Shown: one piece after another, positions 3 to 8,965 of the stretch
Numbering within the stretch: position 1 is the first letter of the stretch
Layout: every line of letters starts with the position of its first letter
Source of the DNA: Clostridia bacterium
GTDB lineage: Bacteria > Bacillota > Clostridia > Oscillospirales > CAG-272
Assembly: GCA_017395885.1 (NCBI GenBank)
Contig: JAFQNM010000114.1
Location: forward strand, 1 to 10,916
Direction: 5' to 3'
DNA: 10,916 nt
Notes under the pieces: generated by a model
Told to the model about the DNA's origin: nothing
The model's input: only the letters and a program-made list of their open reading frames with translations
The model's database searches: none
Program-made: the position numbers and the translations under genes

Positions 3-170
3 CGGGCTTTGAATGAAGGGATCAAACGGCCGCAGGGCATTATTTTTGACCTTCAATGCAACCACGGGTGGAGAACTGACAAAAAGACAGACGAGGGCGG
101 CGGCGGCGGTGTTATCGTGCTTCCCGAAATTGAGCGACCCGTGCCTCCAGAGGAGGAAACCGATGGATAA
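3..170 (+). CDS. Probable terminase small subunit, C-terminal end (5'-truncated by window edge)
   Basis: An open frame enters from the left edge (first full codon at base 3) and gives 55 residues before TAA at 168-170. The visible tail contains an RPQGIIFDLQ stretch, a run of five glycines encoded by GGC repeats (about bases 96-110), then a hydrophobic VIVLPEI strand and an acidic PPEEE end. A Gly-rich linker followed by a short hydrophobic strand and acidic tail is common at the C-terminus of phage small terminase subunits. The stop overlaps the start of the large terminase (ATGGATAA), a coupling typical of terS-terL pairs. The small subunit binds the packaging site and regulates the large subunit. 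The assignment rests mostly on position. The DNA-binding part lies outside the window, so another small packaging-module protein cannot be excluded. Confidence 0.6.
   Translation, partial: RALNEGIKRPQGIIFDLQCNHGWRTDKKTDEGGGGGVIVLPEIERPVPPEEETDG
151..156 (+). promoter_or_regulatory. Ribosome binding site that fixes the terL start
   Basis: A perfect AGGAGG lies six bases before ATG 163. The reading frame stays open upstream to an ATG at 13, but that extension overlaps the small terminase frame, has no Shine-Dalgarno sequence and gives an unlikely basic low-complexity leader. ATG 163 is therefore the start. Confidence 0.9.
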
Positions 171-1584
171 CAAAAAAGTTATCTGGACGCCTCAGCCGAG
201 GCAGGAGATATTTATGCGCCGAGGAGAGGACGAAGCTCTTTACGGCGGTGCTGCAGGTGGCGGAAAGAGTGATGCGCTTGTTATTGAAGCGCTGAGGCAG
301 GTTGAGATACCTCACTACAAGGGATTGATCCTTCGAAAAACATACCCTCAGCTGAGGGAGCTTATAGACAAGAGCCTGAAATATTACAAGTTGGCCTATC
401 CGCGTGCTCGGTACAATGCATCAGAGCACATGTGGACATTTCCATCGGGGGCGAAAATCATTTTCGGTTCCATGAACCACACAAATGACAAGGTGCAGTA
501 TCAGGGTCAAGCTTACGACTTCATAGCATTTGACGAGCTTACACATTTTACATACGACGAATACATCTACCTCGTCGGACGAAATCGCTCGAACGGTCCC
601 GGCACGATGTGCTATATGAGGGCTACTGCCAACCCCGGAGGCGTGGGCCACGGTTGGGTGAAGGAAAGATTTGTTACCGCCGCAGAGCCTATGACAACGT
701 TCTGGGGTAAGGTCACCTATGAAGATCCCGAAAAAGGAATGGTGACGAAGCATCGCTCCCGAGTTTTTATACCTGCAAAAGTATGGGATAACAAGGAGCT
801 TCTAAAAAATGACCCCGGCTACGTTGCAAACCTCGCATCCCTTCCCGAGGCGGATAGGGCGGCGCTTCTTGACGGTAACTGGGACAGCTATGCGGGCCAG
901 TTCTTCTCTGAATGGAGAAACGATCCCGAGCACTACCACGACCACAAATGGACCCACGTTATTGAGCCCTTCGATATTTCGATGGCCAACGTTAATATCT
1001 ACCGATCTTACGACTTCGGTTATGAGCATCCCTTTTCCTGCGGATGGTGGGCGGTTACTCCCGACGGGACATTTTACCGCATTATGGAGTGGTACGGCTC
1101 GAACGGTACACCCAACAAGGGCCTTGAGATGGGGCCTGACGAGCAATTTGAGGAAATTGCTCGTATTGAACGGGAGCATCCCTGGCTTCGGGGACGGGAC
1201 ATATACGGGGTTGCAGACCCTTCCATTTGGGACGGCTCTCGCGGCGTTGCCGTTGCGGAAACGGCAGAAAAGCACGGTATTTACTTTGAGCCCGGTATAA
1301 ACGACCGAATACCCGGCTGGATGCAATGCCACTACCGCTTGCAGTTCAACGAGCAGGGATATGCCCGTATGTACGTTTTTAAAAACTGCAAGGATTTTAT
1401 AAGAACGATCCCAAACCTTGTTTATTCGCAAAAGAGGATCGAGGATCTTGACACGGATGGTGAGGATCACGCGGCGGACGAGTGGCGCTACTTTTGTATG
1501 AGCCACCCCGTATCTCCAAGAGTTCCCGCAAAGCCTCCCAAATTCAGGCACGTTGCAGATCCTCTTAACACGTTAAAAAAGTAA
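163..1584 (+). CDS. terL: Terminase large subunit (packaging ATPase/nuclease)
   Basis: This is the DNA-packaging motor: an N-terminal ATPase translocates DNA through the portal and a C-terminal RNase H-fold nuclease cuts the concatemer. From ATG 163 the protein has 473 residues, a normal length. The Walker A loop is GGAAGGGKS (residues 28-36). Walker B is FIAFDE (120-125), with D124 and catalytic E125, followed by the coupling motif ATANPGG (154-160). The nuclease half starts near 280 and shows three well-placed acidic residues: D284 in RSYDFGYEHP, D352 in YGVADPSIWDG and D439 in HAADEWRYF. All catalytic elements are present, so the gene looks intact. The C-terminus (about 448-473) is Pro/Lys-rich, as expected for a portal-contacting tail. 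The gene overlaps the upstream frame by eight bases and is followed by a palindromic repeat rather than directly by the portal gene. Confidence 0.96.
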   Translation: MDNKKVIWTPQPRQEIFMRRGEDEALYGGAAGGGKSDALVIEALRQVEIPHYKGLILRKTYPQLRELIDKSLKYYKLAYPRARYNASEHMWTFPSGAKIIFGSMNHTNDKVQYQGQAYDFIAFDELTHFTYDEYIYLVGRNRSNGPGTMCYMRATANPGGVGHGWVKERFVTAAEPMTTFWGKVTYEDPEKGMVTKHRSRVFIPAKVWDNKELLKNDPGYVANLASLPEADRAALLDGNWDSYAGQFFSEWRNDPEHYHDHKWTHVIEPFDISMANVNIYRSYDFGYEHPFSCGWWAVTPDGTFYRIMEWYGSNGTPNKGLEMGPDEQFEEIARIEREHPWLRGRDIYGVADPSIWDGSRGVAVAETAEKHGIYFEPGINDRIPGWMQCHYRLQFNEQGYARMYVFKNCKDFIRTIPNLVYSQKRIEDLDTDGEDHAADEWRYFCMSHPVSPRVPAKPPKFRHVADPLNTLKK

Positions 1585-1695: not shown

Positions 1696-3564
1696 ATGAA
1701 TATCTTTGACATATTCAAAAAAAAAGATCCTGCATCTCCCGAAGAAGCAAACGGGAGAGGGCAGGTTCAGAAACCAAATGTCATTGACCGGCTTCAGGTG
1801 AAGCGGGCCGGTGAGCTTTTGGAAAAATACAAGTCCGGCAAGGCTCAGCTTGAGGCGAGGATCATTGAAAACGAGCAGGCGTGGCGTCTGAAGCTTTGGG
1901 ATCACACACAAAAGAACGTAAATCCCAACGATCGCCCTTCAAACACTGCGGTGCTCTGGAACTGCATTGCCTCAAAGCACGCGGATTTTATGGACGGATA
2001 TCCTTCTCCCAACATCGTTCCCCGTATGGGTGACGACGAGGATGAGGCAAAGAAGCTCTCTTATATCGTACCCTGTGTGCTTGAGCACGCGAAATACAGA
2101 AAGATCTACGATATTACCTCTCTTGAGAAGCTGAAGCAGGGCTGCGGCATTACCGGAGTTTTCTGGGATCCTTCACTTCACGGAGGTCTGGGAGACATAA
2201 TTTACAAGGTTATTGATCCCCTTATGCTCTTCTGGGAGCCCGGCCGCAGCGATATTCAGGAATCGGCAAACATTTTCCTTTGCGATCTTGTTGACAACGA
2301 AGCCCTCAAGGCTAAGTACCCCGATATTTTAAACGACAAGGTCCTCGGGCAGGACAAGAGCGTTTCAAGATACGTATACGAGGACAACGTTGACACAACG
2401 GGCAAGAGCCTTGTTGTTGACTGGTATTACAAAAAGCAGGTGGGGGCTCGCAAGGTCCTCCACTTTGCAAAATTCGTAGGAGATACTCTTCTCTACTCTA
2501 CGGAAAACGAAGGGCTTCCCTATCTTTATGCACACGGCCGTTATCCCTTTGTTCCCGACACGCTTTTCCCCTCAAAGGGCACGTGGTTCGGCTTCGGATA
2601 CTCGGACGTTGGCAAGGGCGAGCAGAAGACCATCGACCTTATCTCTCAGGCGGTTGTTAAAAACACGATAGTGGGTGCAAAGCCCCGTTACTTTGTAAAA
2701 AAAGGCGGCGGTGTAAACGAGAAGGAATTTGCAGATCAGTCCCGAGATCTCGTTAGCTACGAGGGCAATGCCGATTCCATAAAGCCTATTGAATACAAGC
2801 CCATCCAGGGCAATTATCTCACCTTCCTTGACTCGAAGATCCAGCTTCTCAAGGAGGTTACGGGTAACCGCGACGTTAACACGGGAGGCACAACCAGCGG
2901 CATTACTGCCGCAAGTGCCATTGCGGCTCTTCAGGAATCGGGATCCAAGCTCTCACGCGATGCGATAAGCGGTACATATGACGCTTTTGAGGACATTATT
3001 TACCTCACTATCGAGCTTATACGTGAAAAATACGATCTTCCGAGATGCTTCCGTATTCTCGGAGAGGATGGAAGGCCTCAGTTTATCAAATATACGAACG
3101 AGGGCCTTGCGGACAAGCCCCAGGTCACCGAGGACGGACGGGACATGGGTGTTCGCCGTCCCGAATTTGACATAATCGTTACAGCCGAAAAGGCTTCCCC
3201 TTATAAAAAGATCGAGCGCAACGAGCTTATGATACAGCTCTATAACCTGGGTGTGCTTCAGCCTCAGAACGCACCTGCTGCACTTCAGCTCCTCTCTCTT
3301 ATGGACTTTGAGGGAAAGGACAGGATCGTTGCCAAGGTATCTGAGAACGGTACCCTTCAGCAGAGACTTGAGGAATACCAGCTGATAGCACTTGAGCTTG
3401 CGGAGAAATACGATCCGGAAATGGCCAAGGGAATTGCAGCAGCTATTGAAGCCGGAATGCCGAGGCAGCTTGCTGTAGCTACGGACACAAGCGGTATGAG
3501 CTCAGAGGAGAGCCGTATGGAGCGTGTACGTGACGAGGCTCAGGAAAGGGCTCAGCCGCAATGA
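1696..3564 (+). CDS. Portal protein (P22-like type)
   Basis: The portal forms the dodecameric ring at one capsid vertex through which DNA enters and leaves, and it docks the terminase and the head-tail adaptor. The protein has 622 residues, within the range of large portals. AAGGAG lies five bases before the ATG. Recognisable parts are the N-terminal helix with QLEARIIENEQAWRL (about 51-65), the clip/stem region GFGYSDVGKGEQKTIDLI (299-316), and the family-typical Gly/Thr/Ser-rich segment EVTGNRDVNTGGTTSGITAA (387-406) followed by SAIAALQESGSKLSRD. The C-terminal 60 residues are helical and charged, ending in a Ser/Glu/Arg-rich tail. Placement after terL and before the protease and scaffold fits. 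Its stop overlaps the next start as ATGA, so the two genes are probably translationally coupled. Family assignment is by recognised sequence pattern, not a search. Confidence 0.93.
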   Translation: MNIFDIFKKKDPASPEEANGRGQVQKPNVIDRLQVKRAGELLEKYKSGKAQLEARIIENEQAWRLKLWDHTQKNVNPNDRPSNTAVLWNCIASKHADFMDGYPSPNIVPRMGDDEDEAKKLSYIVPCVLEHAKYRKIYDITSLEKLKQGCGITGVFWDPSLHGGLGDIIYKVIDPLMLFWEPGRSDIQESANIFLCDLVDNEALKAKYPDILNDKVLGQDKSVSRYVYEDNVDTTGKSLVVDWYYKKQVGARKVLHFAKFVGDTLLYSTENEGLPYLYAHGRYPFVPDTLFPSKGTWFGFGYSDVGKGEQKTIDLISQAVVKNTIVGAKPRYFVKKGGGVNEKEFADQSRDLVSYEGNADSIKPIEYKPIQGNYLTFLDSKIQLLKEVTGNRDVNTGGTTSGITAASAIAALQESGSKLSRDAISGTYDAFEDIIYLTIELIREKYDLPRCFRILGEDGRPQFIKYTNEGLADKPQVTEDGRDMGVRRPEFDIIVTAEKASPYKKIERNELMIQLYNLGVLQPQNAPAALQLLSLMDFEGKDRIVAKVSENGTLQQRLEEYQLIALELAEKYDPEMAKGIAAAIEAGMPRQLAVATDTSGMSSEESRMERVRDEAQERAQPQ

Positions 3565-3920
3565 TAAAGATCGAATACTGCCCTGAAGCCTTCACTTTAC
3601 GGGCTTCGGGGCACGCAGGATACGCGCCGCCGGGACAGGACATTGTTTGCGCGGCGGTCTCGACCCTTATACAGACCCTTGCTCTTTGTGTTTTAGGATA
3701 TACACACGGGCTTGAGGGTGAGCCGACCGTAACGATCGGCGACACGAGAGACGAAGCAACGGAGATCTCCTGTACTCCCCTTCCCGAGAGGGAGAGGGAA
3801 ATCTCACTTATTTACTGGTACTGCATATGCGGGCTTGACGCCCTTTGTGAGAGGTACCCCGAAAACATTGGTATTACCGTCCTCCGGCACGAGGACTTAC
3901 ATACAGAGTCGCAGGCTTAA
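3561..3920 (+). CDS. prp: Prp-like cysteine protease, probable capsid/scaffold maturation enzyme
   Basis: The protein has 119 residues, close to bacterial Prp (ribosomal-processing cysteine protease, formerly DUF464). It carries the family signature GHAGYAPPGQDIVCAAVSTL (residues 17-36), with catalytic His18 and Cys30. The 12-residue spacing equals the His22/Cys34 pair of Staphylococcus aureus Prp. The adjacent Asp27 is also in its family place. In Firmicutes Prp removes the N-terminal leader of ribosomal protein L27, and in S. aureus it also trims the scaffold and capsid proteins of phage 80alpha. Here the gene sits between portal and scaffold, where many phages keep their head-maturation protease, and overlaps the portal stop (ATGA). 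Both downstream genes begin with a Prp-like cleavage motif, so the inferred job is processing of these two phage proteins. Whether it also acts on host L27 is unknown. Confidence 0.93.
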   Translation: MIKIEYCPEAFTLRASGHAGYAPPGQDIVCAAVSTLIQTLALCVLGYTHGLEGEPTVTIGDTRDEATEISCTPLPEREREISLIYWYCICGLDALCERYPENIGITVLRHEDLHTESQA

Positions 3921-3960
3921 CCTGCAGATGCGATGAGTTTACTCAGAAAGGTTTTTATTA

Positions 3961-4908
3961 ATGCTTTTTAAAATTTTTAACCTTCAGCTGTTCGCAGAGG
4001 CTGAGGGAGCTACGGGCGCCGCCCCTAATGAGGGTGCGGGAGGTCAGGCCGCCGCTGACACGGGAGCGACTGCGCCTGCCATGCAGTCAAATGCCACCGA
4101 CGGAGCCGCGCAGGGAGCGGACACAGGAAATGCCGCCGGCGGTATGGGAGAACGCAAACCCTGGGAGCAGGTGCGTGAGCTCTACAAAGCTGAGATCGAT
4201 GCTGACGCAAAGGCTTATGCGAAGGAGTATTCAAAGGACGTTGTAACAAGACGTCTTTCAAAGCAGAAGGCCACTGTGGATGAATACGAAGCTATCAAGC
4301 CCTTCCTCGATCAGGAGCTTTACCGCAGGGGTCTTCCCTCCGGTGACTACAAGGCACTTGTAAAGGCTATGGAAACGGACAAGTCTATGTTCCGCGAGAG
4401 GGCTATTGCACACGGCACCACCGAAGAGGTGGAGGAGGCGCTTTACAATTCGAGGCGCGAAACAGAAAGAGCAAATGCCGAAAACGCGAGGCTGAAGGCG
4501 GAGCAGGAGGAAGAAAGACATCTTGGTGCTATTCGCGAGCAGTACAAGAGAATCGAAAGTGACGTTCGCGCTATCCGCGATCAGTTTGATCCTTCCTTCG
4601 ACCTCAAGGCTGAAATGGCCGCGAATCCCCTTTTCAAGCGCTATGCAGAGGAGCCTCACAACTCTCTTATGGATGCCTACAAGCTGAGCCATCACGACGA
4701 TATCGTGAAGAAGGCCGCGGCAAAGGCTGCCGAGGATGCCGTTGCAAAGACCACAAACGCTATCCGCTCAGGTACTATGCCCGATGAGGGCGCAGTTAAT
4801 GCAGGTTCTCCCGTTTCTACCAAAAAGGATCCTTCAAGCCTCAGTCTTGAAGAGATCAACCAGATGATTGAAGAGGCGGGCAGAGGAATCAAGCACAATT
4901 TCTCTTAA
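3961..4908 (+). CDS. Scaffold protein with Prp-type cleavable leader
   Basis: The scaffold guides capsid assembly and leaves or is degraded before DNA fills the head. The product has 315 residues. It starts with MLFKIFNLQLFA, a Prp-like leader with predicted cut between F11 and A12, leaving about 304 residues. Residues 13-63 are an Ala/Gly/Thr-rich, probably disordered stretch. A long charged helical region follows, with coiled-coil character around 154-208 (Glu/Arg/Gln-rich), and a Lys/Ala-rich helix near 249-268. The C-terminus is polar with a short helix, SLEEINQMIEEAGRG. No enzymatic motif is seen. This composition and the position directly before the capsid gene are typical of scaffold proteins. 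AGAAAGG (3945-3951) lies nine bases before the ATG, and the intact leader confirms that start. A head-internal protein other than scaffold is a less likely alternative. Confidence 0.88.
   Translation: MLFKIFNLQLFAEAEGATGAAPNEGAGGQAAADTGATAPAMQSNATDGAAQGADTGNAAGGMGERKPWEQVRELYKAEIDADAKAYAKEYSKDVVTRRLSKQKATVDEYEAIKPFLDQELYRRGLPSGDYKALVKAMETDKSMFRERAIAHGTTEEVEEALYNSRRETERANAENARLKAEQEEERHLGAIREQYKRIESDVRAIRDQFDPSFDLKAEMAANPLFKRYAEEPHNSLMDAYKLSHHDDIVKKAAAKAAEDAVAKTTNAIRSGTMPDEGAVNAGSPVSTKKDPSSLSLEEINQMIEEAGRGIKHNFS
3979..3996 (+). other. Predicted Prp cleavage motif in scaffold (NLQLF|A)
   Basis: The codons specify N-L-Q-L-F-A at residues 7-12. Prp recognition in L27 follows LxLQFFA with the cut before the final Ala. 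The P1 Phe, P3 Gln, P4 Leu and P1' Ala are all kept here; P2 is Leu instead of Phe. Confidence 0.8.
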
Positions 4909-4910
4909 TC

Positions 4911-4932
4911 TTTCCCACCTCTCGGAAAGGTG
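4911..4932 (+). promoter_or_regulatory. Possible hairpin over the capsid gene ribosome binding site
   Basis: Just after the scaffold stop, CACCT (4916-4920) can pair with AGGTG (4928-4932), or TTTCC (4911-4915) with GGAAA (4924-4928). Either pairing hides the GGAAAGG Shine-Dalgarno (4924-4930) of the capsid gene. The stems are only five pairs, so ribosomes finishing the scaffold gene would easily open them. This would link capsid to scaffold translation. It may also be chance. Confidence 0.35.
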
Positions 4933-4936
4933 AACT

Positions 4937-5956
4937 ATGACAAGACTTAATCACTTTAGCTTTGACATTCAGCTGTTTGCGGCGGCACCTCTTGCACCCG
5001 CGGCAGGTCAAGGCGATGCAGGCCCCGTTAACGTTTCAACCGGCAGCGGTCTCACTGCCGAAATGAAGACGTTCTACAACACCCAGCTTCTGAAGAACGT
5101 GCGTGCAAGGCTCGTTTTCAACCAGTTCGGTAAGAAAACAAGCCTTCCCAAGGGTCACGGTAAAAACGTTGAGTGGAGAAGAATGAAGACCTTCGAGAAG
5201 ATCGATACTCCTCTCGTTGAAGGTCAGATCCCTACGGGCAACTCTCTGGAGATCGAGACTCTTACTGCTGACATTGCTCAGTACGGTGACTATACCGCGA
5301 TCTCCGACGTTCTTGAGTTTGCTTCCGTCGATCCTATTATCGGCGAGGCAAACAACGAGCACGCTGCAAACGCTGCTCTTTCACTCGACGCGCTCACCAG
5401 AGACATCGTATGTGCCGGCACAAACGTTTACTACGCAGGCGCCGTAGAAGACGAGGACGATCTTACTGCCGCTTCTCTTATGACCTACGAGGACGTAGCA
5501 AAGATCGCAAATCTTCTCAAGAGAGTTAATACTCCCACCATCGACGGCTACTTCGTTGCCATCGTCCATCCCGACGTGGCCACTGACCTTATGCTCAACG
5601 ACAAATGGATCGACGTGCAGAAGTACTCCGCTGCGACAAAGATCTTCAACGGTGAGCTTGGTACACTTCACAAGGTTCGCTTCGTTGAATCCACTCAGGC
5701 GAAGATCGAGAAGAATTCTGCAAACCTTGCCGTATACAACAATATCTTCTTCGGCGCTGATGCCTGGGGCGTTATCGATCCCGAGGGCATGGGCCTTGAG
5801 ACTATCGTTAAGGGCAAGGGCGAGATCGGCGGTCCCCTTGAGCAGTTCTCCACCGTTGGCTGGAAGTCAATGCACGGTGCGAAGATCCTCTACGAGGAGA
5901 GAATGGTCAACTATATGTGCACATCCTCTCTCAGCTCTATCGCTGAAGCTAACTGA
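4937..5956 (+). CDS. Major capsid protein, N4-gp56 family, with Prp-type leader
   Basis: This is the main shell subunit, 339 residues with an HK97-type fold expected for the family. Family landmarks seen are TFYNTQLLKNVRARLVFNQFG (residues 45-65 with small differences to relatives), LPKGHGKNVEWRR, the QYGDYTAISDVLEFASVDPII segment near 115-135, RDIVCAGTNVYYAG, and a C-terminal GGPLEQFSTVGWKSMHGAKIL stretch. This pattern is that of the N4-gp56 family. The N-terminus contains DIQLFA (residues 10-15), a Prp-like site. A cut between F14 and A15 would leave about 325 residues. GGAAAGG lies six bases before ATG 4937. Codons lean strongly to C-ending forms (TTC, AAC, ATC, CTC), as expected of a highly expressed gene. 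Neighbours are scaffold before and a small head protein after. Confidence 0.95.
   Translation: MTRLNHFSFDIQLFAAAPLAPAAGQGDAGPVNVSTGSGLTAEMKTFYNTQLLKNVRARLVFNQFGKKTSLPKGHGKNVEWRRMKTFEKIDTPLVEGQIPTGNSLEIETLTADIAQYGDYTAISDVLEFASVDPIIGEANNEHAANAALSLDALTRDIVCAGTNVYYAGAVEDEDDLTAASLMTYEDVAKIANLLKRVNTPTIDGYFVAIVHPDVATDLMLNDKWIDVQKYSAATKIFNGELGTLHKVRFVESTQAKIEKNSANLAVYNNIFFGADAWGVIDPEGMGLETIVKGKGEIGGPLEQFSTVGWKSMHGAKILYEERMVNYMCTSSLSSIAEAN
4964..4981 (+). other. Predicted Prp cleavage motif in capsid protein (DIQLF|A)
   Basis: The codons specify D-I-Q-L-F-A at residues 10-15. The P1 Phe, P3 Gln and P1' Ala agree with the L27 and 80alpha capsid sites. P4 is Ile, a conservative change from Leu, and P2 is Leu. 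Confidence 0.78.
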
Positions 5957-5973: not shown

Positions 5974-6297
5974 ATGGCAGATACAACTAAAAATACTCAG
6001 ACAACTGAGAACACAACTCAGGCGCCTGACAATGCAAATGAATCCGCAACTGCTGCTACTGCAGCTAAGCCTAATAAGCCTGAAATGGTAAAATTCATCG
6101 CCCCTTATCATCCCGGAGCGCTGGAAAATGACCTTCATCTTATGCACAACGGAAAACCCATCACCGTCAAGCGCGGTGAGGAGGTTGAGATCCCCCGCGG
6201 CCACAAGAAGGTCTACGACCGTTCTCAGAGGCTTCTCAAGGAAGCTCAGGAACGCGCTCGCAAGAGACAGGAGCAGTATAAAAACGCAGGCAAATAA
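5974..6297 (+). CDS. Small head-associated protein of unknown function
   Basis: A 107-residue protein is encoded directly behind the capsid gene, with AGGAG (5963-5967) six bases before the ATG. Residues 1-35 are a Thr/Asn/Ala-rich, probably disordered arm. Residues 38-76 look beta-rich and contain FIAPYHPGALENDLHLMHNG followed by KPITVKRGEEVEIPRG. The C-terminus (77-107) is a basic, charged helix rich in Arg, Lys and Gln. Small proteins with a similar NGK-x-I-x-VKRG-x-EVEIP core often follow N4-gp56 capsid genes in prophages of Gram-positive anaerobes, but their role is not established. A decoration or capsid-stabilising role is possible from the position and expected high expression. It has no enzyme motif and no membrane segment. 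Confidence 0.8.
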   Translation: MADTTKNTQTTENTTQAPDNANESATAATAAKPNKPEMVKFIAPYHPGALENDLHLMHNGKPITVKRGEEVEIPRGHKKVYDRSQRLLKEAQERARKRQEQYKNAGK

Positions 6298-6351: not shown

Positions 6352-6708
6352 ATGAAAGTTAATGAAATTATCGCTGACGTTCGAAACACCTGCCGAGGTA
6401 TTGCCCTCGACGACGATCAGCTCATAAAGATGCTCAGGGAGCTTGAGGGGCGCTTATATTCAAGCATTTATGAAAGCTATGAGGATGCGCCCGTATATAC
6501 TCCCGTAGAGGATTGCAGCTCTTCCCTTCTTATTCCCGAAGAATACGCTGACGTTTACAGATACTGGCTTTCATCAAAGATCTATCTCTCCGTCGGCGAT
6601 TATGACAGATACAACACCTTCGCCTCTCTTTATGCAACTGCTCTTGATGCTTTCAAGTGCTTTTACATAAGGAACCATATGCCGAAGAGAGTAAACATCC
6701 GTTATTGA
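6352..6708 (+). CDS. Putative head-tail adaptor/connector protein
   Basis: The product has 118 residues and a clear AGGAGG (6342-6347) four bases before the ATG. It looks mostly helical: an N-terminal helix pair (KVNEIIADVRN and DDQLIKMLRELEGRLYSSIY), a short beta-like stretch ending in LLIPEEY, then DVYRYWLSSKIYLSVGDYDRYN and a final helix ending with the MPKR segment. Small helical proteins of this size between capsid and tail genes are typically head-completion proteins (HK97 gp6 and P22 gp4 occupy this position). Similar IPEEY-x-D-x-Y-x-YWL and GDYDRYN patterns recur at this place in prophages with N4-gp56 capsids. The function is inferred from position and predicted shape. No catalytic residues are recognised. 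Confidence 0.7.
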   Translation: MKVNEIIADVRNTCRGIALDDDQLIKMLRELEGRLYSSIYESYEDAPVYTPVEDCSSSLLIPEEYADVYRYWLSSKIYLSVGDYDRYNTFASLYATALDAFKCFYIRNHMPKRVNIRY

Positions 6709-6715
6709 GGTGCCT

Positions 6716-8965
6716 ATGATAGTGACAAAGCTTGACAGCATCGGAAAGGACACGGAGATGCTCTCCTCCTTCGGAGGCCTTGACCGAAACGTTCTTATAT
6801 CGGAAAACTGCTTTTCTGAAATGAAGAACATGACGGGAGATTTCTATCCGATGGCGGCATCAAGGCAGTCTCGTGGTAGAGTTGACCTTCCCGGCGGCGT
6901 TTTTGCGATGCAGATGTGCAACACCTACGGCACAAGAGAGGATGCGGCTCAAGGTGCTGTGAGAGAGGACGTATTTGCTATCGTGACTTCCTCCGACCAG
7001 AACGGAGAGGCGTTCCTTGAGCTCAGAGACTCAAGCGGCGAGGAAGCGAAGGCTCCCTTTATGCTCGGAGGCTCAGCCAAGGACACTACCCTCATATGCC
7101 GTGCAGGATACGTATACGCCTTTCCTCAAGGAGTACGCCGTGCCACCTACGAGGGCGAGAACGGCTCTCTCTCAAACACCACCATAACACGCAGAATGTT
7201 CGCTCACGATGAGGCGCTGATTCCCGGAGGGGCATATTTTGAGATGAGGCCCTGTGACTCAGAGGGAATCGTTGACGGAGGCCCTATCGCTTCAAGGGCG
7301 GCTACCAAGCTATTTGATGGCACAGATCCTTCTGTTTCAAGGCAGAGCGGAGACCTTATTATCGTCAGGGCATCGGGACTGGCGGTCAACGAATTCGGCA
7401 CGACTGTCAAGGTGAGCAGTGAGGGCAAGGTGCTTGAGAAGAATTACGGTGTGGCTGAGACTATTGAACTGCCTGACGGTGGCTTTGCACTGACGGCCAA
7501 CGGCGATTCCGCAAGCTGGCTCTCAAACAATGCCAAGGAGGGCAGATTCATCTCCATTAGCGGTATGAACTTGAGCATTTTCGAAACGGCAGACAGCTCT
7601 GTGGTATTTGAGAAACCCGACTCTCCCTTTAACGGTCAGAAGTGGTACGACAGAGCGACCTCAAAAAAGTACGTTTACTCAACGGTGCAGGGCGAATGGA
7701 TGCCTTACACCTTGAACTACATATTCTTCACGTTTGTGCCCGGTGTTGGAGACAGCGCATATCTCTATGACGTTTTGCACAACGGCAAAATCGATCTGAA
7801 GCTTGACGGAACAGAGGCTCTTCTCCCCTTCGAGGGATTCAAGGAGGGCGATGCCATTAAGATAAAGGGCTTCTCAGAGGAACTTGACGGCTCGTACATA
7901 ATTGAGAAGGTGGCAGGCGGCGGTCTCGTGCTGAGAGGCATTATCTTTGACTCTGCGGTCAAGATGCTCTCAGACGTTGACGATGAAGAATACTCAAAGG
8001 CTGTGATCGTTTCAAGAGCTCTCCCCAAGATGGACTACGTTATTGAAAGCGGCAACCGACTGTGGGGATGCTACTACGGAATCGGTGAGGACGGCAAGGT
8101 CATAAACGAGATATATGCCTCGGCGCTCGGAGATCCTACAAACTGGTACAAATATCAGGGCATATCAACCGATTCGTGGACGGCCACGATAGGAGCGGAC
8201 GGCCCCTTTACAGGTGCTATTCAGTACGGAGGGTATCCCCTCTTCTTCAAAGAGAACGCCATTATCAGAGTTTACGGAACAGCTCCCTCCTCCTTCTCTA
8301 CCGCCGAATACAACTACAGAGGCGTTCAGAAGGGATCGCACCGTTCTCTCTCCGTTTGTGACGAGGTTCTTTACTACCTCTCGGATGACGGAGTTATGGC
8401 ATACAACGGCTCGGTTCCCCGCAAAGTATCTGATGCACTTGGCCGCGAGCGCTATAAAAGCGGTGTTGCGGGGGCTATCGGCTCAAAATATTATCTTTCC
8501 TGCCTTGATGCTTCTGAAAACTGCCATCTTTTTGTTTTTGACGCTTCTCTCGGGGTCTGGCACCGCGAGGACGAGCTTCGGGTAGGCCAGTTTCTTCGAC
8601 ACAAGACACAGCTTTATATGCTGACAGGCGGCGAGGTGAAGACCGTTTACGGCAGCGGTGAGACGGTTGAATTTGAAGCTACCACGGGTGAGTGGGGGCT
8701 TTCAGATCCTTTCAAAAAGCATTTCGACAGATTTATAATCCGCGCGATCATACCGTTCTCAGGTGAGCTTTCCGTTTATATTTCCTATGACGGAGGAGAA
8801 TGGACACCCCAGGGCGGCTACGTTTCCAACGGTATGACGGTATTTGATATAAGAAACGTTCCAAACAGATGCGACAGCGTGCGCCTTCGCTTTAAAGGAA
8901 AGGGCAACGTTAAGATCGTATCCGTTTACAGAAGTGTTTCGGAAGGAGGACGGGATGTATATTAA
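6716..8965 (+). CDS. Tail nozzle/stabilisation-like protein (podoviral type)
   Basis: This is a large, beta-rich protein of 749 residues. ATG 6716 is chosen because GAGG (6707-6710) lies five bases before it. An in-frame GTG at 6710 would have no ribosome binding site. The most telling region is NRLWG (447-451), then ALGDPTNW (470-477) with ISTDSW after it, then RGVQKGSHRSL (535-545) and repeated short strands such as VLYYLSDDGVMAYNG and KYYLSCLDASENCHLFVFD. The N-R-L-W and A-x-x-x-P-x-x-W order is that of phage tail tubular B/nozzle and P22 gp10-like stabilisation proteins, which use propeller-like blades to close the connector and carry fibres. The N-terminal third (about 1-250) looks less typical and may hold extra domains. 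It follows the adaptor gene by seven bases. Cysteines are few and no hydrolase motif is seen. Confidence 0.8.
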   Translation: MIVTKLDSIGKDTEMLSSFGGLDRNVLISENCFSEMKNMTGDFYPMAASRQSRGRVDLPGGVFAMQMCNTYGTREDAAQGAVREDVFAIVTSSDQNGEAFLELRDSSGEEAKAPFMLGGSAKDTTLICRAGYVYAFPQGVRRATYEGENGSLSNTTITRRMFAHDEALIPGGAYFEMRPCDSEGIVDGGPIASRAATKLFDGTDPSVSRQSGDLIIVRASGLAVNEFGTTVKVSSEGKVLEKNYGVAETIELPDGGFALTANGDSASWLSNNAKEGRFISISGMNLSIFETADSSVVFEKPDSPFNGQKWYDRATSKKYVYSTVQGEWMPYTLNYIFFTFVPGVGDSAYLYDVLHNGKIDLKLDGTEALLPFEGFKEGDAIKIKGFSEELDGSYIIEKVAGGGLVLRGIIFDSAVKMLSDVDDEEYSKAVIVSRALPKMDYVIESGNRLWGCYYGIGEDGKVINEIYASALGDPTNWYKYQGISTDSWTATIGADGPFTGAIQYGGYPLFFKENAIIRVYGTAPSSFSTAEYNYRGVQKGSHRSLSVCDEVLYYLSDDGVMAYNGSVPRKVSDALGRERYKSGVAGAIGSKYYLSCLDASENCHLFVFDASLGVWHREDELRVGQFLRHKTQLYMLTGGEVKTVYGSGETVEFEATTGEWGLSDPFKKHFDRFIIRAIIPFSGELSVYISYDGGEWTPQGGYVSNGMTVFDIRNVPNRCDSVRLRFKGKGNVKIVSVYRSVSEGGRDVY

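Follow-up and report, generated by a model that had tools for sequence, protein, structure and literature searches.

A phage-encoded Prp protease as a probable head-maturation enzyme of prophages with an N4-gp56-type capsid

The DNA analysed here, termed the window, comprises the 10,916 nucleotides of contig JAFQNM010000114.1 (C9) from a Clostridia bacterium of the family CAG-272, whose assembly (GCA_017395885.1; 1.68 Mb, 303 contigs) is fragmented and 72% complete. Sequence and structure identify the product of its gene at 3561..3920, a protein of 119 residues, as a phage-encoded cysteine protease of the Prp family (MEROPS C108-type). With a probability of roughly 85%, judged from sequence and comparative analysis, this phage Prp is a head-maturation enzyme that trims leaders from the scaffold and capsid proteins encoded by the next two genes. 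The enzyme would be produced from its head-operon gene, which lies between those for portal and scaffold, would bind a hydrophobic N-terminal leader, [DN]-[LI]-Q-x-F, on both proteins and would cut the F|A bond, removing 11 residues from the scaffold and 14 from the capsid, as host Prp does on ribosomal protein L27 and on the head proteins of phage 80alpha. Cleavage at this bond, its timing in assembly and its importance for assembly are what we infer from the observations below. All features described lie on the + strand.

The protein encoded at 3561..3920 matches PF04327 with 54.4 bits, against a curated cut-off of 27, and also PHROG 4478, labelled ‘peptidase’. Compared with the Staphylococcus aureus enzyme (SaPrp; residue numbering from PMC9405229), the family spacing is preserved, with the catalytic His18 (codon 3612..3614) and Cys30 (codon 3648..3650) 12 residues apart and Asp27 three residues before the Cys; both catalytic residues are kept in 128/128 aligned host and phage Prps. 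An AlphaFold2 model derived from 43 sequences (predicted local distance difference test, pLDDT, of 88.4) displays the Prp fold, and its best structural matches are solved Prps, including SaPrp with bound substrate (7kld, 7jvs). The preliminary description of this DNA had assigned the gene to Prp with His18 and Cys30 as catalytic pair, and the domain score, the fold and the conservation of both residues bear this out. The location differs from that of an L27-processing Prp, which adjoins rpmA and lies between rplU and rpmA, since the gene is found between portal and scaffold; rpmA was not found in the window's own genome, the assembly being incomplete. Recent capture of the phage Prp from a host was considered and rejected on the basis of a Prp tree with 32 Prps from hosts, 16 from other phages and 80 from the short-tailed-type phages. 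The 80 group together as a single clan (support 91/83; the group is recovered in 89% of bootstraps), with many inner forks unsettled. Being one clan apart from both, these 80 Prps look like an old phage lineage. In BFVD, viral Prp-like proteins are listed under names including ‘Cysteine protease’ and ‘YsxB-like protein’.

The gene at 3961..4908 encodes a protein of 315 residues that matches phrog_13908 (annotated as of unknown function) and is the putative scaffold, as it lies between Prp and capsid and its homologues precede the capsid gene in relatives. Its leader, MLFKIFNLQLF (3961..3993), is predicted to be cut before Ala12. The major capsid protein (4937..5956; 339 residues) is of the N4-gp56 type, as proposed before, with matches to PF25209 (42.6 bits) and phrog_1357 and with relatives (P0114 at 57% identity, P0163 at 46%) that their sources call ‘N4-gp56 family major capsid protein’. 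The capsid leader, MTRLNHFSFDIQLF (4937..4978), is predicted to be cut before Ala15; the structural model of the capsid has an overall pLDDT of 75.1, with residues 1-39 below 50. In the window the motif xLQxF[AGSDT] occurs at scaffold residue 7 and capsid residue 10 and nowhere else, so that the sites NLQLFA and DIQLFA are confined to these two proteins and the 80alpha-type arrangement, a site on both scaffold and capsid, is present. The motif recurs N-terminally in capsid relatives: in a separate protein collection it falls within the first 32 residues of 105/120 capsid relatives (those listed of 1076 found), with 8 matches over 38,947 positions elsewhere. Among the remaining head-protein positions the background rate was 9/132,299, and a chance origin of the leaders was rejected by these counts.

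The capsid was searched for in 295 genomes of the host's family and was present in 90, the window's own included. The 107 loci examined comprise 94 from this search, chosen among the matches listed, three viral contigs, nine phage records (of 73 with the capsid) and the window; partial or fragment hits were left out (e.g. G012:C77, G092:C20, G083:C190, G027:C110, G003:C160, G199:C57 and G006; G, C and L denote genomes, contigs and loci). A close-relative search of viral contigs with the window capsid gave no match. Portal and Prp are both present in 80 loci, 11 have a portal without Prp, seven are cut by a contig end and nine have no portal in view, two of these with Prp. The Prp start lies -60 to +30 nt from the portal stop in 62/89 rows, some loci being present twice. 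L064 and L066, near-copies of L067, were removed before profile counts, reducing 80 loci to 78, while L125 and L126, which look like mutual copies, were both kept in locus, strict-motif and profile counts. Leaders were called with a profile whose threshold was set from 1,343 background windows (97.5th percentile); it was trained on strict matches from the same loci, which favours finding leaders, equally in all groups. By this profile a capsid leader is present in 68/78 portal-and-Prp loci versus 2/11 portal loci without Prp (Fisher p = 6e-6), and by the strict motif in 60/80 versus 1/11. A search of nine Prp-less portal loci by open reading frame (ORF) and His-Cys pattern found no Prp-like ORF; portal loci without Prp and without any leader are L175, L177 and L180 and, outside the family, L091 (Bacillus) and L092 (Paenibacillus). 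Co-occurrence of Prp gene and leader in relatives, which the preliminary description had set beforehand as a condition, holds for the capsid leader; scaffold leaders are equally common with and without Prp, as described below.

A natural experiment is provided by hosts without Prp in the wider order, where another 39 capsid loci were examined (25 carrying both portal and Prp, five with portal and without a called Prp, nine without portal). In nine host genomes rplU is directly followed by rpmA, with no prp between, and the rpmA product starts MAHKKG, an L27 without leader; prp and L27 leader are both absent in several families of the order (L309, L310, L312-L318). Laboratory Escherichia coli likewise has a short L27 and lacks Prp (PMC9405229). 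Six of these nine genomes have PF04327 matches, all beside N4-gp56-type capsid genes, and three (G335, G055, G561) have none; G514 is only 68% complete. In these hosts 8/8 phage loci with leaders on both proteins have Prp in the usual slot (L240, L249, L253, L257, L258, L265, L267, L277), and 3/3 loci without leaders have no Prp (L248, L275, L276), one of them sharing its genome with a Prp-bearing locus (Fisher p = 0.006). The slot ORF of L249 keeps GHA and CCS and is probably a Prp, with a sub-threshold PF04327 E-value of 0.037; in L253 and L277, where Gln is missing from substrate position P3, the leaders were called by eye. A Prp-like ORF of L247 scores 22.5 bits, below the cut-off. As leaders in Prp-less hosts occur only together with a phage Prp, neither cleavage by the host enzyme nor service to L27 explains the phage gene there, and the phage Prp is very probably a leader peptidase able to act without host Prp. 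The self-contained Prp maturation module that had been suggested for an N4-gp56 phage is thus supported, both by this pattern and by the 80 of 107 loci that carry portal and Prp, with cleavage itself a prediction.

Leaders and enzyme also vary together. Scaffold and capsid share the residue at P2 in 13/21 non-redundant loci, compared with 7.5 under shuffling (p = 3e-4). In comparisons with a nearest relative whose capsid has another P2, the scaffold agrees with its own capsid 19 times (three of these with a residue other than the common Leu), with the neighbour's never, and with neither 13 times. The distance between capsid leaders tracks the distance between Prps after correction for that between capsid cores (partial Mantel r = 0.27, p = 5e-4). 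Odd leaders are paired within their locus, as judged by eye: LHT[HQ]MF|D in L087, LQAF|A in L166 and LTLF|S in L190.

Foremost among the alternatives, with a small share of the probability, is that host Prp does the cutting, as it does in 80alpha, the phage copy being redundant or a relic. Among relatives of the host, a prp adjoining rpmA is found in most, together with a long L27 whose leader ends in QFF|A, the host-family site reading [SGD]LQFF|AHKKG in the loci read. Furthermore, Phe occupies P2 in 7/7 leaders of six portal-bearing Prp-less loci (L085, L140, L162, L167, L168, L170), perhaps three lineages, versus 2/103 leaders of portal-and-Prp loci (Fisher p = 1e-9, kinship uncorrected), and all seven leader-bearing loci of the order that lack portal and Prp are in hosts with long L27 and adjoining prp. 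Use of host Prp therefore probably occurs in some phages. A general rule that Prp-less loci have host-like leaders was rejected, as only portal-bearing loci fit; those without portal or Prp have Leu at P2 19 times and Phe once. For the Prp-bearing phages themselves, cleavage by the host enzyme is made unlikely by the leaders that persist in hosts without Prp and long L27, there only with phage Prp, and by the near absence of P2 Phe, to which the L257 capsid in the wider order is one more exception; His and Cys, kept in every aligned Prp, also count against it.

Slightly less probable still is that the LQxFA segments are conserved assembly or chaperone-binding peptides rather than cleavage sites, Prp having another job. 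PMC5744158 gives this some ground, as the N-terminal sequence of the 80alpha scaffold is needed for assembly and its cutting is not; the segments, however, agree with the known Prp site, covary with Prp and are absent in the three Prp-less loci of Prp-less hosts. That the phage Prp serves the host ribosome, processing L27 during infection with the head leaders a side matter, is scarcely credible, for although L27 is the established substrate of the Prp family (PMC9405229), the L27 of nine hosts is leaderless, yet phages of seven carry Prp (one sub-threshold), and the gene lies in the head operon, in seven loci as one ORF with the scaffold.

Several observations weigh against trimming of both leaders by the phage Prp. 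Scaffold leaders are no commoner with Prp, being found by the profile in 35/78 portal-and-Prp loci and 5/11 portal loci without Prp. No capsid leader was called by the profile in 10/78 portal-and-Prp loci, although four of these (L087, L184, L185, L190) have leader-like sequence by eye, with none visible in the others; in the order a relaxed pattern gives a capsid leader in only 18/25 portal-and-Prp loci and in 1/5 portal loci without a called Prp. Conversely, the capsid leader is retained in 12/14 loci without portal and Prp in the stretch (profile) and, by eye, in 7/9 order loci without portal. As such loci often keep the capsid leader, another Prp must cut it there, if it is cut at all, and as several of them end at a contig end, a Prp may lie outside the stretch. 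Positions P4 and P1' display no excess agreement between scaffold and capsid. The association in the nine hosts weakens if L249 is scored as lacking Prp (p = 0.024) or if only strict leaders with Gln at P3 are admitted (p = 0.06), and the loci are related, so all p-values are optimistic. Finally, cleavage of either protein is dispensable in 80alpha, though its scaffold leader is essential (PMC5744158).

Prp and scaffold form one stop-to-stop ORF in seven loci (L088, at 4562-5785, L089, L257, L258, L260, L263 and L267), an arrangement that recalls the nested protease and scaffold genes of phage lambda. In L088, L089, L257, L258 and L267 the two are joined at M-x-[DE]-LQLFA, which contains the cleavage motif; the Prp domain of L258 was placed wrongly by the best-stretch rule. 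The LQLFA motif is duplicated in L089, which also has a possible ribosome site ahead of the scaffold, and the scaffold may either have a separate start at the junction or be part of a fusion product. The module is also found with another capsid. In phages with a phrog_10-type capsid, Prp is likewise encoded ahead of a scaffold and a capsid that both carry leaders in 7/17 listed viral-contig loci and in six cultured phages; two further loci of the 17 (L082, L083) have no leaders and eight were not resolved by the script. Among the cultured phages, Fontainebleau has the leader NLQLF|D twice, NLQRF|A occurs twice in phiS13 and Krappator27, and in TP712 NLQRF is followed by A or S; the leaders of scaffold and capsid are unlike each other in PLgT-1 and DO134P1. 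In the record of the last, a Dorea phage (L222), the Prp gene at 4001-4285, among the head genes, is unannotated. Three other phage-filed records (L223, L224 and L225; OR846610, MT836103 and MT837018) hold a bacterial-looking L21-prp-L27 locus, because of which they seem to contain host DNA. On balance we lean towards a broader view, in which a leader-peptidase module that is self-contained and independent of the host is carried by Firmicute phages of two or more capsid families. It would comprise a Prp lineage of its own, matching scaffold and capsid leaders that change together with the enzyme and, in some phages, a Prp-scaffold ORF joined at the cleavage site, from which the protease could release itself; Prp-less phages would either lose their leaders or retain one and rely on the enzyme of the host.

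The ten main genes of the window encode, in order, terminase, P22-type portal, Prp, scaffold, capsid, two small proteins, an internal-virion-type protein and two proteins without assignment. The terminase large subunit (163..1584, with an ATG at 163) matches PF03237 (63 bits) and phrog_979 (215 bits; scanned from base 169). The P22-type portal (1696..3564) matches PF16510 (94.5 bits) and phrog_156, and its stop overlaps the Prp start by four bases (ATGA). Beyond the capsid lie a small head-region protein (5974..6297; phrog_15239), a small protein (6352..6708; phrog_12105) and an internal virion protein-like product (6710..8965; phrog_511, 190 bits). A second prophage remnant in the same assembly (G000:C45, L003; 4255-6630) comprises a terminase end and a portal and Prp with the same overlap; an IS30-type-looking transposase lies ~1 kb further on, and no scaffold or capsid was recognised in it. 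Five loci of the window's genus (L226-L230; G004:C32, G016:C6, G000:C248, G015:C37 and G011:C103) place an N4-gp56-type capsid among housekeeping-looking genes, one of which resembles uvrA. A scaffold is present in 4/5, together with look-alikes, by eye, of the window protein at 6710-8965; the stretch contains nothing that matches terminase, portal or Prp, and most of the loci keep leaders (xLQLF|G and similar). These could be domesticated capsids or satellites.

With the proposed role of the phage Prp, a phage family labelled only ‘peptidase’ gains a testable function, and the head proteases that phages encode are extended by one more type, which is common among the prophages studied here. 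The loci would offer many naturally matched enzyme-site pairs for a protease studied as an antibiotic target, and hosts without Prp and long L27 allow a direct test that leaves an essential host gene untouched.

That the phage carries the enzyme itself, as the preliminary description stressed, holds in that the Prp gene lies in the head operon, and is not unprecedented, given Cp-1 and cultured phages of Lactococcus, Oenococcus and Acutalibacter. Within the open-licence PMC literature no publication was recognised on a phage-encoded Prp with paired L27-like head leaders. In the Streptococcus pneumophage Cp-1 the maturation protease is presumably the product of orf13, called hypothetical in its record, which is divergent (PF04327 18.5 bits, below cut-off) and is encoded after the collar genes rather than between portal and scaffold. 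The likeness is that a Prp-family protease (C108, clan CR) trims the phage's own head protein, removing 48 residues from the N-terminus of the major head protein (PMC12445089). This differs from the shorter leaders described here, and the sequence around position 48 is not LQxF|A. The capsid of 80alpha, which we take to belong to a different family than that of the window, is processed by the host's enzyme and not by a phage's. Its resemblance lies in the leaders, L27-like and carried by both scaffold and capsid, which are cut F|A by host Prp according to PMC5744158 and PMC9405229. Host Prp itself shares Pfam family, fold and catalytic His and Cys with the phage enzyme, but adjoins rpmA, falls outside the branch of N4-gp56-phage Prps and faces an L27 site reading QFF|A in the loci read. 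Closest in arrangement are the phages with a phrog_4478 ‘peptidase’ (Lactococcus PLgT-1, Oenococcus phiS13 and Krappator27, Acutalibacter Fontainebleau; ‘unknown’ in Lactococcus TP712), in which Prp follows the portal and precedes a scaffold and a capsid with L27-like leaders on both. They differ in the extra genes between portal, Prp and scaffold in several and in the capsid family (phrog_10, tested for Fontainebleau), and their records draw no link between the Prp gene and the leaders. Within the limits that these precedents (Cp-1, 80alpha and the cultured ‘peptidase’ phages) set to novelty, what is new is the module of one enzyme and two leaders in the N4-gp56-type capsid family, its co-variation and the single ORFs that join Prp to scaffold.

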